Shown piece after piece: positions 1,647 through 51,324 of a DNA stretch of 64,000 bases. The position numbers and the translations under genes are program-made. A model generated the notes under the pieces. It did no database searches. It was not told where the DNA came from and worked only from the letters and a program-made list of their open reading frames with translations. Position 1 is the first letter of the stretch; each line of letters opens with the position of its first letter. This DNA comes from Obelidium mucronatum (taxonomy: Eukaryota; Chytridiomycota; Chytridiomycetes; Chytridiales; Chytriomycetaceae), in the NCBI GenBank assembly GCA_025765595.1, contig JAIVFH010000076.1:62001-126000 (forward strand), given 5' to 3'.

Positions 1647-4630
1647 ATGAGCGCTTCGACAAACGCAGCTTCCGGCGCAGGCCGCAGGACGCCGCTCGGC
1701 GCGCTGGTCGCGGCGCTGCTCAGTCTGAGTCTGAGTCCGCTCGCCCCGCCGCCGCCGCCGCCGCGCAGCCCGAGTCCGCTGTCCAAGGCGCGCGCGCTGC
1801 CGCCGCTGCCGCCGCTGCTGCCCGAGCGCGAGTATTCCGCCGTCCAAGCCGCAACGCCAGCCATCGCAATCCAAACTGCAACCACTGCCTCGACAGGTGC
1901 GGGCCCACCATTCGAGTTTCTCAAATGTGTTTGATTATTATTTCGTGTTTTCAAAAAAAAAAAAAAAAAAAATTTTTAGTCGTTCTGCCGACGGAAGTCT
2001 GGATCCGCGTCGTGTGTTTTGTGCCCAACTTGCTGCCCTTCAGTCGCGCCTGCTCTGCGGCAAAGTCGTTTCTGGAGCACCCGCACGTGCGCCATTTGTG
2101 GCTGATTGCGCGGTATGGTCTTCCGTTGGCGCTGTATGGCGGCCTGGTTCATTATCCGAGACTCATGTCGGAGGAAATTTGTCAAATGCTTTTGACTGCT
2201 GGTGCAAATGTATGTGTACGAGTAAAATCTCCTTTTTGCTTCTCTCATTTAATAATAATAATAATAATAATAAAAAGGTTCCCCGATTCCTGGTCCAATT
2301 GGGCTTCGACGACTTCAACAAGGGAATCAACTCTGGCCCCTCCGTGTTTCTAGATGTACTCGTTATTTCGTATTGCAAAAAGCGGGGCTTCTCGGCATGT
2401 CGACCGGATGACGACGTTGATTCTGATACCTTGTCAAGTTTTTTTTGTTTTCCAAATGGGTTGATTACTAATATGGATCCTGAGAAGGCGAGTGTCGTTT
2501 GTTTTGGGAATGATTCCATGTAAGTCGTTCTCTGTAATTTGAATTTGCAGACCCTCAAAAAAAACCCCCTTTTTTTTTTATAGGTTTTTCGAACAACTCC
2601 TCAATCGTGGTGGATCCACAACAAATCAAGGCCCACCCCACCAACTTGATTTGGAGAATTTAATTGTCAATGAACAGTTCATTCCCATTGTCGAGTCAAA
2701 TCCAACTTCCCTGTTCCGCATCTTTCAGCTTTCTCAAATGGATATGCGGTTATTGGATATCATGATCAACAAGAACGGATTTAAAGTGTCGAAAGTGAAT
2801 GATGAAGTGTTGAGGAGGGTTGTGGCGTGTAATTCGTATCAGTTTGGTGGTACTAGTACAACAGCAGCAACAGCAGCAGCAACAGCCACAGCAACAGCCA
2901 CAACAACAGCAACAGGAAAACCAAATTGCCCACCTCTAAAAGAATACCTAACGCGCGGCTTCAAACTCTCCCAAAACCTTGTGAAATCGATACTCCTGGA
3001 CAGCGCCAACTCCAACTGCGACTTGATTGTTCAAAATTTAGCGACACATGTATCTGCGTCCTTGTTGCGGAGGAGCGCGCTTGAGATTGTGAATGAAATG
3101 TTGGGGCCGTCGGGGACGGTGGCGTTTTCTAGGACCTTGATGTCGCAGCTTTTGGGGATGGGGATATTGAATCGGAATGATGTCCAGCGAGCGCTTATTG
3201 GCGGTGGCGTTGGTGGTGGTGGCGTTGGTGGTGGTAGTGGGTTGAGACAAACAACTGCTGTTGCTACAACGATTGATGATCGAATTCCGTATACAACGAG
3301 ATGCTATGAGCAAACACAGCCGCATAAAGTGTGGCATTGGGTTCTGGAGACGTTTGGGGCGACCCATGTGTTGACGCAGTACTGTTTTGATGATTTGTTG
3401 CAGTGGTTGGGTGATTTGGGTGCCAAAGGTTGGACTGTAGGCAAATCCGGGTCACGGCATTTAGCAACCAGTTCGAGCAATGCTTTGGGTGGTGGTGGTG
3501 GGGGTGGTGGGGGTGCAGGTGGCGGGGCAGCTGGGGCGGCCTCACTTGGATTTAATCCGTTTAATAGCCATGTTGCGCCATTTGTAGAAGCGGGTGTGAA
3601 GGTGCTTCCCCGGCATTTGCAGTTTTTGGCCAAAGCGGCGAAATGCAAGGCGTCGGCACCGATGCCTGCGATTGTGATATCGTTGGCGTTTCGAAGCATT
3701 GTTCAAAGTGGAGTGGATATTAGACTTGCGATTGAAAAAGAGGAGGCGGCGGCGGTGACTTTGGCGGCGGCGGGGTTGCGGTTGAAGAAGACTGATACTG
3801 ATGCTGTGCTTGATTCCAATGAGACACTTTGTCAATCTTTGCAACAATTGGATCATCAGTATCAGCATCATCATAATAATCGTCGTAGAGGAGTCTCTCG
3901 AGATGGTTTGTTGTTGAATGGAGGAGAAGCGTTGCCCAATTCTGTATTTGGGCAGCAACAACAGCAACAACAACAACAGCAAGATGTAGCCGTCAAACCG
4001 CCTTCTCTGGGAATACTATCATCTGCATCTAAAAGCGTCTTTTGGTGGGGAGATGGGAAGTTGAATGACTCCACGCAGGCGTCAGTGCTTGCCGCAGATC
4101 TTCTTGACACAAGAGAGTCTGGAAACCACCCTTTGTCGGCATCAGAATATCCTTCTTCTTCTTCTTCTTCTCCTTCTTCATCAAGTGCAGCTACTTCACT
4201 CTTGATTTCGTATAATCAAGAAATTCTCTTGTGGATCGACGCGATTCGGTCGTTTTATCAGGATACAGCCACGATCCACTCAATCAAGCACGCAGACGCA
4301 GAATGGTTCAAGGAATATAAATCGGATTTGGAGGCGCAGGACCGGAAAGAGCTGATGACGATTGGGATTCCCATGAAAAAGAGTTGGTCAGGTGGGGGCT
4401 TGGGCAAACGGCAGAGCGAATTTGGGTCTGGGTTAAGAGATTTGTTGGTTGCGATTGGGGGAGGGGGTGGTGGAGGTATAGGTACTGGTGGCAGTGGGCG
4501 GCAGGCGGCAAGAGTGAAAGCGTTGGGAACGAGGACGGTAGGGAGACCGGGACGGTTTCTGGAGATTGTACAGGATATGCTGAATAGGCTGGAGCTGATG
4601 GCGGCAAGCAATAGAGGAGGGAGGAAGTAG
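1647..4630 (+). CDS. F-box protein with long low-complexity inserts
   Basis: Exons are 1647-1896, 1980-2209, 2278-2519 and 2584-4630, giving 922 residues; all junctions are GT-AG and phase-consistent. Residues 1-83 are a GC-rich leader heavy in Pro, Ser and Ala. An F-box-like motif begins at exon 2 (VLPTEVWIRVVCFVPNLL, then FSRACSAAKSFLEHPHVRHLW), the region that docks on Skp1 in SCF ubiquitin ligases. Behind it are repeated helical segments (for example YPRLMSEEICQMLLTAGANV and PRFLVQLGFDDFNKGI) that look like degenerate ankyrin-type repeats. The C-terminal half carries Gly runs, a Gln run near 3950-3980, a Ser run near 4150 and a Thr/Ala run near 2860-2920. A role as a substrate-recognition subunit is inference; no substrate can be named. 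Confidence 0.7.
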
Positions 4631-4732
4631 GCGTGTATTATTTGATCATTTTTATTTATTTGTTTTTACTTATTACAGTTTATTAAACATTAATAATTTG
4701 ACAAATCCCCGAAATCAACAACCGCCAGTCCA

Positions 4733-6950
4733 ATGAACACAGCAGACCACACGGGCATGTCCAAGGCAGCGCGGCCGCACCTGCGCGACAGTCTGATGAT
4801 GGTCGATGCCGAGATGCCGCAGCGGGTGCTGAACCGCAACTCTGACCATTTCATCCGCAGCATGATGGAGCCGACGTATGTGGGCGCGGGGGCGCACGCC
4901 GCCAACGCCGCCAGCGCCAGCAGCGGCGGGATGGACGTCGACGGCGAAGCAACGCCGACGGCGGCGGCGGCGGCGGCGGCACTCGGCGCGCACTCGTTCG
5001 ACAAAGGCGGCGGCGGCGGCGGCAGCGGCTTCGAGCTGTTTCCCGGGCTGCCGCCTGCGGAGGCGCTGCTGCCGCTGGCGCTGCCGCTGGAGACACAGGC
5101 GACTCTGCAAGGCCACCACCAGCTGCAACACCAACTGCAACTGCATCAACAGCTGCAACTACAACAGCACCAGCAGCTGCAATACCCTGACTTTTCGCAA
5201 CCACCGCCAGTGAGGATGGGTCCGCCGCTGCATCTGCCGCCCCCGTCGCTGTTCCATCCAAGCCAGGTTCAACCAGCCTATCTGCAGCAGGAACAACTGC
5301 ACCAACAACACCAACAACAACAACAGCAACTGCAAAATGGAATCAACTTTCAATCGGCTGCCGCGGCACTGGTCGCTTCGCTGACGCCCGAGCAACGCCT
5401 CACCCTTGCCGCTGAAGCAATGTCCCACATGAACCCTCAGCAGGTTCAACCGCCGCCGCTCCTGCTTCCACCGTTCCAAAATTCACATGCGTCCACCACT
5501 CCTCAAATATTTCAAGGGTCGGACCCCACCTTTGGATTAATGCAGACTCTGCCACCACCACCACCACCACCACCATTACTGCCACAACCGACGTTTCTGT
5601 ATCCAGACGCTATTCAAAATACCCTCTCTTTTGGAAACTCACCGCTCGCGGCCGAAAAGGTTCCAAATGTGCCTCAATTACCCCTTGCCGGAGTCGCCAA
5701 CTTTGGACTCACACCTTTGGAGATACAACCATCATCTTCGATTGAGCAACAACAGCAGCGACAACATAAAGAACAGCAACAACAACTTCAGAATGAAGCC
5801 ATTGATCGAGAGTTTAATCAATCACATGCAATGGAAGGAGCAAACGATAGTATCAATGGACCTCAGTCTGCAATTTCAGAGGATTCTGATGCAATGATTG
5901 ACGACCTGTATACTTCGGCCAAATCGGCGTACGATACATTAAAGTCGGAAATCGTAAAACAAGATGGGGACGAGCAACCACCGCGAAATCAGAATGACCA
6001 GCAAGTACTTTATCAGCAACTCCACCAACAGGAACAAGAACTGCAACTTCAACAAGCACAGCAACAAGCACAGCAACAACACCAACAAGAACAGCAGCAG
6101 CAACAAGCACAACATCAACACCAACAAGAGCCGCAACAACAACAACAACAACATCATCATCAACAACAACAACATCAGCAACACCAACAACAAAAGCTCA
6201 AGAGCCGAATATCTTTTTTGGGCTTTCCAGGGTTACAAGGACAACAACAAGGACCCTCATGGTTCAATAGGAGTAGCACCGAATCCACTTCCAACACGCC
6301 CGAAGGCGATCAGGACGAATCAGTGAAGAGAAAGTTATCGCGTCGATTGTCTCGACCCTTGAGTGCACTTTTTAGTCAGCGAGGTGGATCCTTGGATGTT
6401 GAGAACCCATCTATAACAGCATCTGAGACACATGACGATGATGACGGGGACGATGAAGGGACTTTTCAAGGAGGACCTGCGATGGTGGTTCGAGAAAAGA
6501 GTCAGTTGTCCAACTTGAAGAAACGGTTAAGTAGTATTGCCTTGACTCTTGGAAGTGGCAAGTGAGTTATTTTCTCTTTATTTTTGGTCTTTATTCTTGT
6601 TTGTTTTTGGAAGATTATTAATGTGTGCTGGTTTTTTGTTAGAGGCTTGTTATCAAAAGTCATGCAGCCAACGGCGCCATCCCCGCCGCCTCCAGCTGTA
6701 CTCTCGCCAATAACGATGACGGCATTAACAGGAACTTTGACGTCAAATGCTTCAGCTTCTATGGATTTGAAACATGTCGGTAGTGCACCAGAATCGGATG
6801 GAGAGATTTCAATGACAGATCATGAGTCTCGGTTTGGAAGCATGGGTCGACGTTCCGATGGAGATTATGGAAGCATTGGACGATCATCGGAAGTAGAGAA
6901 AGTGAATGGAATGCCATACATTTGTATGCATTGTCATCGACCGGTTTGTG

Positions 6951-6989
<39 letters not shown>

Positions 6990-7268
6990 TTTGTTTGTTT
7001 CAACGAAATATTCACTTCCATCCCATTGTACATTTTTAGTTTTTGAGGAAACACGATTTCAAACGACATGTTGCGACAACGCATAATTCTGGAGAAGTTT
7101 CATTCAAGTGCGAAACATGTCCAAAAACGTTTACAAGGTTTTTGAAGCTAACACATTTGTTCTCTGTCAACTAATAACTCCCTTGCTACTAAAACGAAAA
7201 TCAATAGAAACGATGCATTGCAGCGGCATGTCAAGAGTCGGTGTAAAGGACTTAGAGGCATGAAATGA
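4733..7268 (+). CDS. glutamine-rich C2H2 zinc-finger transcription factor
   Basis: Exons are 4733-6561, 6643-6943, 7040-7137 and 7208-7268, giving 762 residues. Two C2H2 fingers lie at the very C-terminus and are assembled from the last three exons: CMHCHRPFLRKHDFKRH followed by CETCPKTFTRNDALQRH. Both keep the Cys-x2-Cys-x12-His spacing only if the introns are removed as given, which supports the model. The rest is disordered: Ala/Gly runs near residues 75-105, a very long Gln/His stretch at about 6010-6200, Pro runs and a basic Ser-rich segment KRKLSRRLSRPLSALFSQR. This layout of a long activation-like domain plus paired terminal fingers is typical of fungal DNA-binding regulators. Targets are unknown. 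The third intron is 96 nt and holds a 37-base T run. Confidence 0.8.
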
Positions 7269-44190: not shown

Positions 44191-47100
44191 TCAAGATATT
44201 GTGCATCCAACTGATTGATTCTCTTTATCCTGCTTTCCACTCGTTTTTTTGATAACCTTTGGAGCATTCACCAATCGAAACTCACTTTCAGGAAGAGCTT
44301 CTTTGCATTGAAAAAGATCGTGACCAACACACCATTTCTCGCAGTTACCTAAAGCAAAGCTCTCGCGGAACTCAGTATGCAGAATCTGATGAGCACGCTT
44401 CAAATGCTCATTCGATATTGGATCCAAATGACTCACGTAATAGCGATCTTTGTGAAAGACGCAATTAATCAAAACCCAACCAACCGCTTCCTTGTTATGC
44501 CCAAACTGAGCAAATTCGTCCCGTCCAACCACACCAGCCATTTCCTTGTCACCAATCCAAAAAACAATACCCCCACCCTCCGACGACACTCTTCCAATGT
44601 ACTGAAAACGAGCTGCAATCAAATTTTCCAACACAGCATCATCCATGCTGCCACTCTTTAATCCAAAATGGTTCCAATCACTCCCGTTCTGATTGAAGTG
44701 GTTTGGAATAAAAGATTTTTGTTTCTTCAAGATTCTTGAATGAAGTTCATGTAGCTCCTTCATGACGGAATTGTCAACAAAATGTTCCTTGCACCACTTG
44801 GCACGTTTTGACTTTGATGGCAACGATAGCCATTTATCATACACAAGCAGTTTACAATACGTGCTTCCTCCTCCTCCTCCTCCAGCAGCAGCAGCAGTCG
44901 TCGTTGTTGGTTTCGAGTCCCCAAAAAGAATTGACACCTTGAATCCCTTTTGAAACATTCGATTGCCGCAATCCAACGAAAGAAGAGCACCAACAACAGC
45001 CGCCTGATTCATTGCCGCGCTTTCAAGATTTGGAGTCCTTCTCGTCCAAATGTTTAGGAGAAATCGTGTTGCAGTGACACTGAGTCCCATTCTGCAAAAC
45101 TCCAATGCACAATGTCCAGCTTGACAGAGCCGGTAATTATCATCCTCGACAAGTGAAATCATTCTCTGTCCCCGAAGACTCCGAAGAACGTATTCAAATT
45201 CTTCCTTGGTGGGGGGAACAAACCATTCAAAGCCACCAGATGTCAAGTCTCCCCCCACCAGAGAAATGATTCGAAGAATCATCATGTCCATTGCATCAGA
45301 ACCGGAAAATGTTTGGTCGACAAAGTTTTCCTCGTCTGCTGGGGAATACAGTCGAACACAATGGCCAGGGGCAAGCCGGCCAGCCCTTCCTTTACGCTGT
45401 ACAGCAGAAACCGTGGTCTAAGAAGAAAAAACTACCATCAACATAATATTTTTCGCACTCATATAATTGGAAACAAACCGTTGGTTTCAATTCAAGTTTT
45501 TGTGTGTTCAGAATTGGATTCCGTGAGATTGTTAATTGAAGGCCAGCGTCAACGACATATCCAACCTTTTGAAAAGTCAACGACGTTTCTGCAATATTGG
45601 TACAGAAAATGACTCGGCGCTCCTTGACAACGTGGTCCTCTGCAACATTCAATTCGTCGTCATTCCCTTCGTCCAAATCCGCATTCTCATCCTCTTCGTC
45701 ATCATCCTCATCATAGTCCTCTTCATCATCGTCTTCATTGTATCCGAATAAGCCATCAAGCTCATCTCCTTCCTCAGAGTTAATCACGTCTTCTGCAGCC
45801 GTATCGTCAAGAACTCGGCTTGCCATAGGAAGCCGCTTAATAATAAATTGCTTCTCCGCTTCATCAACATTCGAATGCAACTGAAATGAATGAAGCGGCA
45901 ACGCACAATCCAACAAAGAGCCACCATTTTGAATCTCGTCTGCCATCTTTTGTCGCAATTGAGAACACGCTGAAACGATATCATTCACTCGAGGAAGAAA
46001 CACCAAAATATCAGGGTTTCCGTGATTATCAGAACGTTTATGGATGTTCATTACAGCCTCAATAGCGCCGGGAATAAACCTGGCTGCATCTGTCGATAAG
46101 GATCCCACGTGTTGCTCGGAAACTGGGAAACTCTGTCCAGCCACTTCAATCACTGGACACTGGCCAAAAAAATCTGTAAACTTGGCAGCGTTTACTTGTG
46201 CCGACATGAGCAACACTTTGAGCGTCGGATTATGTTTTTGTGCATGTTTGATGAGTCCAATGCAGAAATGAAGTTCACAGGAATCTTCGTGAACTTCATC
46301 AAGGACAATAATGCTGTAGTTGCGGAAATGGGGATCGTTCTGGGCATAGGATAACAAGATTCCATAAGTCACACAATGGATCATGGTTTGATGCTTGGAT
46401 ATTTTAGATTTTGACTTTCCAATATGGCTCCCGATTTCTGTTCCAATAGCAGTGCCCAAAGTGCCAGCCAGTCTCGTTGCTAACGATGTAGTTGCATTGC
46501 GCCTTGGTTGCGCAACCAGGATCTTCTTTGTTGTAGACTCCTCACCAACAAACAAACGATCATGTGCCAAAAAGTGTGGAATACAAGTCGATTTCCCTGA
46601 TCCTGTTGATGAGAGCACAAGACACGCCTTTGTGTCATCCTGCGCAAACCTGGATAGGCTTTTTCTCTTTGAATAAATGGGTAGTCCACTATTTCCATAA
46701 ATTTTTTTAATTAATTGCAGTGTTTTTTTTTTTTGGAAAGGAAAAACGTAACAAACCTTGTCAGAATTCCAACTTCAACTCGCAGCAAACGATCCAAGTC
46801 CATCAAATCTTGCGATTCCAAATCTTTCCTAGTTAATGCTGTCGCAAGGCTCTCCAACACAAAGGCGAAACCCTCACTGCGATTAATCACATCAGACAAG
46901 ACCAAATTTTGATCCAAATGCTTTGAAATTTCTCTGATATACTCTGTAATTGGTAATTCATCAGAGGTTGCGGCTGATATCTTCTCCTTAAGTGCAACAA
47001 GGTGTTCCCTCTCAGGTTCCGCAGCTCGGATGGATTCTTCCAATCGAGAAACTGCATCCACACAAATAGACGCTGTTTCAGCACTTAAAAACTTTTTGAT

Positions 47101-49325
47101 CAAATCCAAAGTATCGCTTGAAATCAGACTCGTCATGCAGATTGGTGCTTGTCCAGCAAAAGAATCAAGGAGCCGCAAGGCCTTTGTTGTCAAATCAATG
47201 TTTTCCCTGACCATCGGCGGTACAAATGTGTCAGACAGCTTATTTGAGTGCCAAAAGTCGTCTTCAGATGAGGAACTCTCGAAAAAGGTGAAGCAAAACT
47301 CTTCTTGATCAATCAGGCTAATAAATTTGGAGCAAGAGTCTGAAGATTTCTTGATTTGCTCGAGAACCTTGTATAGACTCGATACTTCTGGTGTTTGACA
47401 GGAGTAGATTTCCCGTTGAATAGCATTCACGAGTTGGGAAATGTCTAAATCCATTGAATCGACTCCAACAGAGAACATTGCAGTTAATAGGTCACGAATT
47501 CGGCGAGGGGAAAATTTGGTTTGGTTGTCTGACTTCATCGAGAACTTTTGGCTGGCCAATAGAAGGGAATCGATGAGCCCAACTTTCGATGTGGATTGAG
47601 CAGGGTCGGTCAGCATATTAATAAGGGTTTGTTTGAGATTTGATGAGTTTTTAGAAGAGATTGGTTGTGAAAGGCCCAGATTTTCAACCTCCAAGGTGAT
47701 AACATTTTGAATATGGTTGGGTCGATAATCAAATGGGGGAAAAGGCTTAATGTGAGAAACAAGGTCTTGATCCCAAATAACCAGAAATTGATCACCGTCC
47801 AAGTCACCACCACTAAATATCAAACAGTCAACCTTTTTTCTTTAGTACTGAAACCCACCTTGACATATCGGCGTGAGGCCGATCCCCTTGAACGGAAAAC
47901 ACAATCACATCATTTAAATGGTTGAGTGATTCATGTTCCACTGCGTTGAGGAGCAAAACATCCCCTTCATGATAGCATGGATTTCGAACCACCAACACAC
48001 GACCCGTAATAGTTCGTTTCTTTGATTTATCAGAAACTTGAACAAAGCAAGAGTGTTGGTCCAAAACACCCGCTGTGTCGGAAATTCCATACAACCGGCG
48101 GGATTCTTTCAAGGGAAGAAACACGCGTCGCAATGGTTCCAACTTATCAACGCCTGCATTGGCAAGGGGACTCTTTGTCCATTTCGACAATTCCGATTGC
48201 TGAACACTTTTTAATTGATTCCAGCACTTCTTAATGTCACGCGAGCTTCTTCTCATTAACGCTTCGTGTAATTTGGCAAACAAGCCTCCATGACCTAACA
48301 ACCATAGCAAATCGAATGCAGCACGTATATCAATCGTTGAAAACTTGACGGCATTTCGATACTGTCGGTCTTTACTCACGAGTACCTGAAAGTATCTTTG
48401 TTAGCGAAAATATCTAAAGTCCCCAATCATCTCACGAACATGCTCAGGTATTCCTCGCTCCAAAAGTAAAACAAGGACTTGCGCGTTCAAAGCACCGCTC
48501 GAACTCGGCTTGGAAAACCCAATAACGGCAAGGGGGAACCGGGAAAGGCTTAACGCAGGAACAAGTTCGCCTCCTTGATTAGGGACGCAAACATTTAACT
48601 TTTTCATGGATGGTCTCAAAATAACGGTTCTTTGGGGCAATTTTGGAGAAGCTGAAAGTACGCCTTTGACACCTGGAAGCCTTATTTGCAGGCACGATGA
48701 GCCATTGCCCCATTCGAGTGCCAAGTCTTGTGACATGACTCCACACCCATCTGTAAAGTTGTATCCATTTCGAACCACATCCTCTTCCCATTGAATGGTC
48801 ACCTCGTTGACCATCCGAACTGGGGACGAGAGGTTATTGAAAAGTAGGCCGGAATACTTGATGAACTTTGCTGGATTCTGTACTTGCCATTCGGATTTAA
48901 AGATGTCAGGACACAGAGAGACAATTTAGTGGGAAACGAACCAGAATAGCATCCAAACCCAGACACGACTGCACGCGTTTTAATTCCGTCTTCTTGCAAA
49001 GAACGCACGCGCGATTGGACTGCATCCCTCGCGAGAAAGTGAGGAATGTCCATTGGTTGAAGCCGCTGCTGAGGTCTTTACCGAATTCCGCCAAGTCTTT
49101 TTCATTTTCATTTCCCGCAAAGTCAACAATGAGAAACTGGATGTCGCCGTAGGGGAAGATTGCTTGTGCAAGGTTGTTCATACTCCTCGCAGCAATCGTA
49201 TCAAAGCCGGAGAGAATTCCTTTTGTATAATGCTTGACAGAGAAAGTGAATTTACGTTTGGGTGGTGCTGGTGCCTTCCGCTGCGTTGCTGTATTGGGAA
49301 ATGGCGCTATCATCTTGGTTGTCAT
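44191..49325 (-). CDS. RNA-dependent RNA polymerase fused to DEAH-box helicase
   Basis: Exons on the minus strand are 49325-48942, 48877-48440, 48385-47859, 47812-46757, 46688-45479 and 45417-44191, giving 1613 residues. The first part is a cellular RdRP of the RNA-silencing type: RNGYNFTDGCGVMS, LPQRTVILRPSMKK, VVRNPCYHEGDV and the catalytic GGDLDGDQFLVIWD at about residues 451-464. The second part, from residue 804, is a DEAH helicase: LPIYSKRKSL, P-loop STGSGKS, DEVH at 932, an acidic insert and QRKGRAGR. Motif III reads SAQ instead of SAT. The RdRP and helicase frames join through a phase-2 intron (46689-46756) without a stop. A role in siRNA production is inference. Confidence 0.82.
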
Positions 49326-49444: not shown

Positions 49445-50591
49445 TCACTTTAACCTCTTGATATACTCGCTTGGTAAATGCTCCCACGGAAACGGCCACC
49501 CACTTTGAAGAATCCCCACAAGCGACACATTCCCTGTAATAAATCCAACAAGAGACGCCGGGAACCGTGTCCCCAAAAACCACAACCCATTCTTTACAAT
49601 GCATTCCAAGTCGCGCGCGGTTCCCACCGTATATAAAGGAAAGTCATAATTCAAGACAACAGGAACACCAACATGTTTATAATCCGTTTCACGGTTTCGA
49701 CGTAACGTGGAAGAAGAATCAGAGTCTGCTGATAAGCAGGATGTTCCAATTGGAAAGGAAGGCACAATGTCGTTTGCATTCACGATCCTGTACATAACAA
49801 CTAATAAAATTGAAGGAAAAAAAAATGAGTTAACTGAAGGGAACTTTAGACGAGAGACCACCCAAACCTTGACTCGCAGTACAACACTTTGAAACCTCCG
49901 TCGCAAACTCTGTATCTCCACACTTTGGAGACCCAAAAGTATAACACCCCTTCAAAAAAGGAACAAGAGAATGTCTTGTATGAACCAAGTGAGCCAATAC
50001 AACCGTAGCCAAGGCAGCACCCAAGGAATGCCCAGTAACCCAGATGAATGGAAATCCTTTCGAAACGAGCTCATGTTGGTGGTGCGCAGTTGATGAATTT
50101 GTTGTCGTTTTCCTTTCGTCAAATTGGGGAAGAACTTTGGCTTCTAAAACGTGCAACAACTCTGATATTCTAAGTGGACAAGTATTGTCGGTGCCAGAAG
50201 AAAAGGTTGCCTTATCAGAGAGTTTTGTATCAAGTGGCGAAAAATCCAGAGCGTTCCAAAACGTCTTGTTGAACAAAACAATTAGCATGACTCGAACAAC
50301 AACAAGCAATAACAAAAAAAAAACGTCTTTTACTTCATGAATCTGTCCCGGAAGAACATCCTTCCCCGGTTTCTGTTTCTGTATCGTCGCACTTGTCAAG
50401 AGCTCTGAAATATCAAGAGGACTTGGTCCCGAAAAAACCAACACTACAAAATTGCATTCCACAGAGTAGAAAACAGTAGCCGCAGCTCTCGCATTGACGC
50501 CATCATCACCACTGCATCCAGAAGAAGAGACAGTTTCGACCTTGAGGCCATATAATCCAGCATAATGCTCTAAGCATATTTGTGCTTAGAA

Positions 50592-50633
<42 letters not shown>

Positions 50634-51324
50634 GGTCCTTGATATACCTACTACATCAACATGCTCATACGCAAGCGCCGATAAATGCAAAAACAACTGC
50701 GCCATCGCAGTATTAAACGGCGGCCGCGCTTTCGCCTCCACCGAATTCGGAACGCGACAAATCCCTTCCACAACAGCTTGCTCAACAAACCGCCCGTCCC
50801 TTTTAATCCTCTCTGCGAATTTTTGAAACAGAGTCGGTGTAGATGCAGAAACGAGACTGGTTGGTGGAATCATTGTTGTGGATCCGTTCGGCTGGATCCA
50901 AGATGATATCAGTGAACTAATGTTTTGCTGCTGTTTTTGATCCTTTTTTGCAGGTACTTTGAATGGTTTCACGATCCTGCATGCCGCAAATATTTTTTTT
51001 TGTTGAGTGTTGGTTGGTATATTTTTTTTTCCTTCGATCAAACTGTCACATACCGAGGTAGAATCCACGCTGACATTGGATCAATAACGATATATCCAAT
51101 CACACCAGATATCGCTGCCAATCCTAGAATAAAGCCATTGACGATAACGACAAATACACTGTTGTGTATGTATTTTTTTTTGACTTAGTATTCTATCTGC
51201 ATGGCCAGCCAAAACAAAGTCAAATGCACCTGTCTAGCCACTGCGCGAAATGGGCCCATAATAACTGTGTCCATCGCGACCAGTCAGTCATGTCGAACGC
51301 GTCAGGTTCAGACACGCCATTCAT
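49445..51324 (-). CDS. class 3 (triacylglycerol) lipase, membrane anchored
   Basis: Exons on the minus strand are 51324-51230, 51158-51054, 50976-50652, 50570-50334, 50264-49868 and 49800-49445, giving 504 residues. An N-terminal membrane helix (VFVVIVNGFILGLAAISGVI) is followed by an alpha/beta-hydrolase lipase_3 domain. The nucleophile Ser334 sits in VTGHSLGAALA, the likely Asp397 in YRIVNANDIVP, and the likely His429 in YKHVGVP, in the right order and spacing. Other markers are LPGQIHETFWNAL and YTFGSPKCGD. It probably hydrolyses acylglycerols at a membrane or lipid droplet. One intron holds an unbroken run of 39 A. Some short introns could be read through, but conserved motifs favour this model. 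Confidence 0.85.
50594..50632 (-). repeat. 39-base A homopolymer in lipase intron
   Basis: An unbroken A run on the plus strand (T on the gene strand) inside the intron 50571-50651, a very long pyrimidine tract for an 81-nt intron. Confidence 0.85.

Follow-up and report, generated by a model that had tools for sequence, protein, structure and literature searches.

A predicted RNA-dependent RNA polymerase joined to a C-terminal DEAH helicase in the chytrid Obelidium mucronatum and its relatives

Introduction

Can a silencing RNA-dependent RNA polymerase (RdRP) and a DEAH helicase be parts of the same chytrid protein? This question is raised by a gene of Obelidium mucronatum that lies within a 64,000-nucleotide stretch of contig C76 (positions 62001-126000, referred to here as the window) in a 48.3 Mb assembly of 694 contigs. 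An initial annotation of the window proposed that the RdRP motifs of this gene are followed by a full helicase in one polypeptide, that the two parts stand in the opposite order to those of Dictyostelium RdRPs, and that the architecture may be undescribed.

RdRPs with an N-terminal Dicer-like DEAD-box helicase have been reported from Dictyostelium, Peronosporomycetidae, Hydra and Nematostella (PMC4791657; papers are cited here for the parts of their text that were available). In Dictyostelium and oomycetes, where the RdRP carries a helicase, all or some of the Dicers have lost theirs, and the authors considered the significance of this unclear (PMC4791657). Our comparisons of sequence confirmed that the fusion at the Obelidium locus is real and conserved. 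RdRP-helicase fusions are a known kind of protein, and the C-terminal DEAH form is at most a new variant of it.

Results

The polymerase and the helicase are encoded by one spliced gene

The gene model contains five GT-AG introns (64, 54, 46, 68 and 61 nucleotides), and its spliced frame is open over 1613 codons (Table 1). An additional intron in exon 1 (49081-49020), present in a draft model of 1594 amino acids, was rejected because homologues show a continuous reading frame there. On the 1613-amino-acid model we recovered the residue positions given by the initial annotation (DLDGD at 453-457, DEVH at 932 and SGLPIYSKRK at 802). The junction intron was likewise placed as annotated, at 46756-46689 and in phase 2, and has GT-AG ends: exon 4, which carries DLDGD, is open up to 46757, and the helicase exon starts at 46688.

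Alternatively, two neighbouring genes may have been joined by prediction only, with 46689-46756 being intergenic. Without splicing, the RdRP frame reaches a TAA 46 nucleotides inside the junction intron, and NCBI's own model of the locus, P0001 (938 amino acids), lacks the RdRP; both points favour two genes. However, P0001 matches the last 938 residues of our model at 100% identity, starts at Met676 inside the RdRP exon and includes ILTSGLPIYSKRK, the sequence of the spliced junction. From 46774 onwards the helicase frame is free of stops, and it has no ATG upstream of LPIY. Because the first methionine of exon 5 (residue 904) follows motif I, a helicase gene of its own with its start in exon 5 would be without this motif. 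Three lines of evidence for one polypeptide, described below, are independent of splice prediction in the window: the same junction intron in a paralogue, 20 fused relatives, and congruent trees of the two halves. In view of these data, we consider two separate genes extremely unlikely.

A paralogue has the same junction intron and is under purifying selection

The same genome encodes a paralogue with the same domain order (C12:214000-223999, L009), of which a 98%-identical copy lies on C134 (L010). The window protein and the paralogue are 36% identical across 1436 aligned residues, and three of the five introns of the window gene recur in the paralogue at the exact position and phase. The junction intron, compared between the window gene and the Obelidium paralogue, is one of these; it falls in codon 801 of the former and codon 768 of the latter, in phase 2 in both. 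In the paralogue it holds a GT microsatellite whose length differs between the two copies, and the intron spans 144 nucleotides in C12 (L009 7081-7224) and 68 in C134 (L010 6989-7056). Obelidium and Chytriomyces each have both paralogue lines, which suggests that the duplication took place before the two genera split.

Selection was measured on the C12 and C134 pair, the window gene itself being single-copy in the assembly. Both halves of the paralogue are under purifying selection, with a nonsynonymous-to-synonymous ratio (pN/pS) of 0.23 in the RdRP (18 synonymous and 14 nonsynonymous changes), 0.04 in the helicase (14 and 2) and 0.19 in the C-terminal part (16 and 12). Relative to C12, the C134 copy has three single-base indels in its 3' part and its frame stops early, reflecting either assembly error or decay.

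Fused proteins are found in other chytrids

Each protein search was limited to about 8000 scored candidates with a length of at least about 880 amino acids; the counts of relatives given here are lower bounds. We identified 20 more members of the family in the database, from ten other named chytrids and three JGI records. Two proteins each were found in Chytriomyces hyalinus, Blyttiomyces sp., Irineochytrium annulatum and Entophlyctis luteolus, four in Phlyctochytrium bullatum, and one each in C. cf. hyalinus JEL632, Phlyctochytrium planicorne, Siphonaria sp., Physocladia obscura and Cladochytrium replicatum. A search with the RdRP half alone returned 8 proteins at E 0.001, of which P0001, P0002, P0003, P0007 and P0121 belong to the family. 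Viral contigs queried with A1 and P0133, and genome contigs queried with P0130, yielded no relatives.

The initial annotation had suggested looking in chytrid proteomes for an RdRP followed by a DEAH helicase. With the two Obelidium proteins, the relatives make up 22 rows, and in all of them, other chytrids included, the DLDGD loop is present and stands ahead of helicase motif I. The order is the reverse of the Dictyostelium kind, as had been proposed.

An RdRP tree and a helicase tree each placed the family in one clade. The helicase tree omitted P0131 and eight rows from the Obelidium genome (fragments or near-copies), and the RdRP tree omitted P0208 and P0226. Congruence was tested on careful trees of 21 of the 22 rows (P0010 did not pass the fill filter). 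The two half-trees share 12 of 18 splits, compared with a maximum of 3 in 2000 label permutations, which shows at the level of sequence that the RdRP and helicase halves were co-inherited.

One protein outside the family has a similar composition. P0134 (2625 amino acids, 'lgn' source) carries an RdRP, then a DEAH helicase, and a KH match below the cut-off. It falls outside the fusion group in both trees, on a long branch and with unsure placement, so the RdRP-DEAH pairing may have arisen twice.

The N-terminal half has the core fold of cellular RdRPs

Pfam scores were obtained from the 1594-amino-acid draft with a reporting threshold of E 0.001. The draft matched PF05183 over positions 84-466 of the 582 in the profile (E 1.7e-66; 225.6 bits against a cut-off of 23.8). 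By fold comparison, using QDE-1 domain limits from PMC1750930, the RdRP half shares the core fold of QDE-1 and RDR2, comprising most of the region from slab to neck. The head that follows the neck in those enzymes, and their long N-terminal parts, have no aligned counterpart in the fusion, which has the helicase attached instead. This evidence identifies the N-terminal half as the core of a cellular RdRP, with the fold of QDE-1/RDR2 and predicted polymerase activity.

The structure model of P0001 predicts a long helical hairpin in the linker, then two helices running into RecA1. These predicted helices connect the helicase to the RdRP just past the neck, at the place that the rear portion of the head domain takes in QDE-1.

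The C-terminal half is a DEAH/RHA helicase

The draft matched PF00270 (E 4.2e-9) and PF00271 (E 5.7e-7) instead of the helicase families AAA_11/AAA_12. All the superfamily 2 motifs sought (I, Ia, II, III, V and VI, with DExH) were found in the window protein. Motif I is present in 22/22 rows and DEVH in 21 (P0131 has EEVH). Downstream of RecA2, fold comparison recognised winged-helix, ratchet and OB domains, with matches to Prp2, Prp43 and Prp22; Prp43 is also the closest solved relative by sequence. PF04408, the HA2 profile that the initial annotation had expected, was not among the three Pfam families found at E 0.001, and neither it nor PF21010 or PF07717 appeared at that threshold in the draft or among the domains precomputed for the 20 relatives. 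Judged by motifs and fold, a complete RNA helicase of the DEAH/RHA type makes up the C-terminal half, and the annotation of a C-terminal helicase of DEAH type holds.

The fusion helicase shares the full DEAH/RHA fold and motifs with Prp43/DHX15, Prp2, Prp22 and bacterial HrpA; it differs from them in forming its own clade, in an acidic RecA2 insert and in being joined to an RdRP. Broad comparisons, including those with HrpA and with superfamily 1 (SF1) fusions, were made with quick trees on family-derived profile alignments. The fusion clade is apart from DHX8, mog-5 and the DEAH rows of the Obelidium genome. The label 'HrpA' used in the initial annotation fails in its strict sense: although the initial match list consisted mostly of HrpA, 21 fusion rows and 12 bacterial HrpA rows form separate groups, each with a Shimodaira-Hasegawa-like approximate likelihood ratio test (SH-aLRT) value of 100, and membership of bacterial HrpA was rejected.

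The best solved relatives of the fused helicase are DEAH enzymes, which places it outside the Dicer-like helicase class. Transfer of the helicase from Dicer was rejected as unlikely, given that the Dicer loci on C18, C10 and C21 keep Dicer-type helicase motifs, as read by eye in their open reading frames (ORFs).

We also considered whether the protein, while fused, may be degenerate or unrelated to RNA interference (RNAi), for example a structural scaffold. The indels in the C134 copy of the paralogue would fit such a protein. The RdRP loop and motif I are nevertheless found in every row and DEVH in all but one, and selection maintains both halves of the paralogue; a degenerate or RNAi-unrelated protein is very unlikely.

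The Obelidium genome contains Piwi and Dicer genes

In the assembly, the Piwi profile gave 20 matches on nine contigs, RNase III gave 13 matches on eight contigs, and Dicer_dimer gave 6 on six; several of the contigs look like near-copies. At the C18 Dicer locus, RNase III matches twice and Dicer_dimer once, in part, and one ORF reads by eye as a DEAD-type helicase. At the C21 locus, an ORF that appears retroelement-like by eye (L035 5886-7256) adjoins the helicase part. Because Piwi and Dicer genes are present, a role of the fusion in amplification of small interfering RNA (siRNA) is plausible.

The one unfused RdRP gene found in the assembly, on C490 (L011 63-7777), has no helicase match and groups with other fungal RdRPs in the tree. 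It is split by a 1692-amino-acid ORF on the opposite strand (2119-7197) that looks copia-like by eye, and PF05183 matches flank this ORF. Unless there is an intact allele of the C490 gene, functional RdRPs in this assembly would be limited to the fused ones.

Gene structure and surroundings

The features of the gene are collected in Table 1. An Rfam scan of the window gave 0 matches. The adjacent gene (49445-51080, minus strand) lies about 120 bases upstream of the ATG; by eye it contains GHSLGAALATV and appears to be an ordinary lipase-like gene.

Table 1. Positions in the window of the fusion gene and its parts
Feature	Position	Strand	Description
Whole gene	44191-49325	-	ATG 49325-49323, stop 44193-44191; 6 exons, 1613 amino acids; from spliced translation and homologues
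Exon 1	48942-49325	-	Residues 1-128, RdRP start; 3' boundary fixed by aligned homologues
Exon 2	48440-48877	-	Residues 129-274, RdRP
Exon 3	47859-48385	-	Residues 275-450, RdRP
Exon 4	46757-47812	-	Residues 450-802, single open exon: RdRP catalytic loop, rest of RdRP, linker
DLDGD	47791-47805	-	Residues 453-457, predicted catalytic aspartates
Linker	46757-47091	-	About residues 691-802; from P0001 structure model (P0001 residue + 675)
Junction intron	46689-46756	-	68 nucleotides, phase 2, GTTTGT...ATAG
Exon 5	45479-46688	-	Residues 802-1205: RecA1, most of RecA2 including acidic low-confidence insert
Helicase motif I, GSGKST	46586-46603	-	Residues 831-836
Helicase motif II, DEVH	46289-46300	-	Residues 932-935
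Exon 6	44191-45417	-	Residues 1206-1613: RecA2 end, winged helix, ratchet, OB fold, disordered tail
Helicase motif VI, QRKGRAGR	45376-45399	-	Residues 1212-1219
Winged-helix/ratchet/OB region	44353-45210	-	About residues 1275-1560; fold matches to Prp2, Prp43, Prp22

Discussion

The chytrid proteins resemble the RdRPs of the Dictyostelium type in combining a silencing RdRP and an RNA helicase in one chain. The helicase of the latter is N-terminal, DEAD-box and Dicer-like, whereas that of the chytrids is C-terminal and of the DEAH/RHA type, with ratchet and OB domains. In addition, where Dictyostelium and oomycetes have lost the helicase from all or some Dicers, the Dicer loci of Obelidium still have helicase motifs by eye. 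Proteins in which a C-terminal SF1 (AAA_11/AAA_12) helicase follows the RdRP occur in basidiomycetes (P0172 and P0177), in the diatom Seminavis robusta (P0124) and in P0171. These share the order of RdRP then helicase in one chain with the chytrid fusion; their helicase belongs to another superfamily, and their RdRPs fall in other clades of the tree, although the deep branch that separates them is weak (63).

The subunits of the RNA-directed RNA polymerase complex (RDRC) of fission yeast are Rdp1, the helicase Hrr1 and Cid12. Hrr1 is not known to be a DEAH enzyme. As in the fusion, an RdRP acts there with a helicase, but the subunits are separate. P0209 (2634 amino acids, ENA source) has an N-terminal DEAD helicase, an RdRP and a below-cut-off match to a poly(A)-polymerase-like nucleotidyltransferase (E 3.4e-4), a set reminiscent of the three activities of the RDRC within a single chain.

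Our literature searches covered work on fusions and on RNAi in chytrids, fungi and oomycetes, at the level of titles and the starts of abstracts and with most subscription journals outside their scope; the matches listed contained no description of the chytrid DEAH-RdRP form. The claim of an undescribed architecture stands at most for this C-terminal DEAH variant. It does not stand in general, as RdRP-helicase fusions have been described (PMC4791657) and C-terminal SF1 fusions are present in databases.

RdRPs read the template in the 3' to 5' direction. As a rule, DEAH-box enzymes open duplexes that have a 3' overhang, moving 3' to 5', and may winch single-stranded RNA (PMC6486627); for QDE-1, initiation at a 3' end is possible (PMC1750930). 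From the anatomy, motifs, clades, co-inheritance and selection described above, we give an even chance to a bifunctional enzyme in which a DEAH motor clears or feeds the template of the attached RdRP, a mechanism that we infer. The RdRP would copy single-stranded RNA into double-stranded RNA (dsRNA) for Dicer. The motor would load onto the single-stranded template and, because both activities run 3' to 5' on that strand, would travel with the polymerase, either stripping structure and bound proteins ahead of it or feeding the template in. The outcome would be processive dsRNA synthesis on folded or protein-bound RNA, a task of template clearing that elsewhere would be left to a separate helicase.

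Several observations weigh against this reading, besides the NCBI model without an RdRP. The relatives are known as gene models; P0005, P0009 and P0131 are labelled partial, P0125 is labelled UNVERIFIED_CONTAM, and P0126 has an additional 5'-nucleotidase domain at its front. Motif VI was found in 18/22 rows (not in P0005, P0009, P0121 and P0131), and motif V was not found in P0121 and P0131. The linker of the paralogue pair has a pN/pS of 1.78 (1 synonymous and 7 nonsynonymous changes). One of the 12 splits shared by the half-trees is weak in both (19/0 and 43/10), and the 3' to 5' polarity of the helicase is inferred from its relatives.

The helicase may instead act on the product side, as the initial annotation suggested in part, by parting the new duplex or freeing the template for reuse by the RdRP or for single-stranded small RNAs. 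The same anatomy would fit, and the unwinding of 3'-overhang duplexes by DEAH enzymes (PMC6486627) is consistent with it. Taking dsRNA apart, however, would run counter to Dicer, whose genes this genome has (C18 locus), and we consider this use of the helicase improbable.

It is also unlikely, if somewhat less so, that the DEAH half mainly remodels ribonucleoproteins (RNPs) and passes transcripts from stalled spliceosomes or other complexes to the attached RdRP. Its best solved relatives are mostly spliceosomal enzymes. The Cid12 subunit of the fission-yeast RDRC associates, independently of RNA, with the DEAH splicing factor Prp16, and in Cryptococcus siRNA synthesis is triggered by stalled spliceosomes via SCANR (PMC5322907). 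However, spliceosomal enzymes head the lists of structural relatives because they are heavily sampled among DEAH structures, and the separation of the fusion clade from DHX8, mog-5 and the other DEAH rows of the genome speaks against recruitment. A more specific version, to which we give a low probability, is that a silencing RdRP with a spliceosome-type DEAH motor pulls transcripts out of RNPs that are stalled or aberrant (spliceosomes, perhaps also RNA bound by Argonaute), feeds them to its polymerase and serves as the main dsRNA maker of chytrids. If so, the link between splicing and RNAi that separate proteins make in other fungi would reside in one protein.

A survey of fungal RNAi proteins gives 0.33 RdRP per chytrid genome (funRNA; PMC4290597). 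Several records of the present family are named 'dhx15', 'dhr2' or 5'-nucleotidase, and the record of the Obelidium locus, P0001, has no RdRP, which suggests that RdRPs of chytrids are missed in counts or carry wrong names.

At least three forms of RdRP-helicase fusion exist; they differ in helicase class, and the helicase is N-terminal in some and C-terminal in others, suggesting that RdRPs often need a motor. Because the known polarity of DEAH enzymes matches the direction in which the template is read, the chytrid form offers a testable model for the clearing of template RNA during siRNA amplification, and it could show how cells turn structured or protein-bound RNA into dsRNA.

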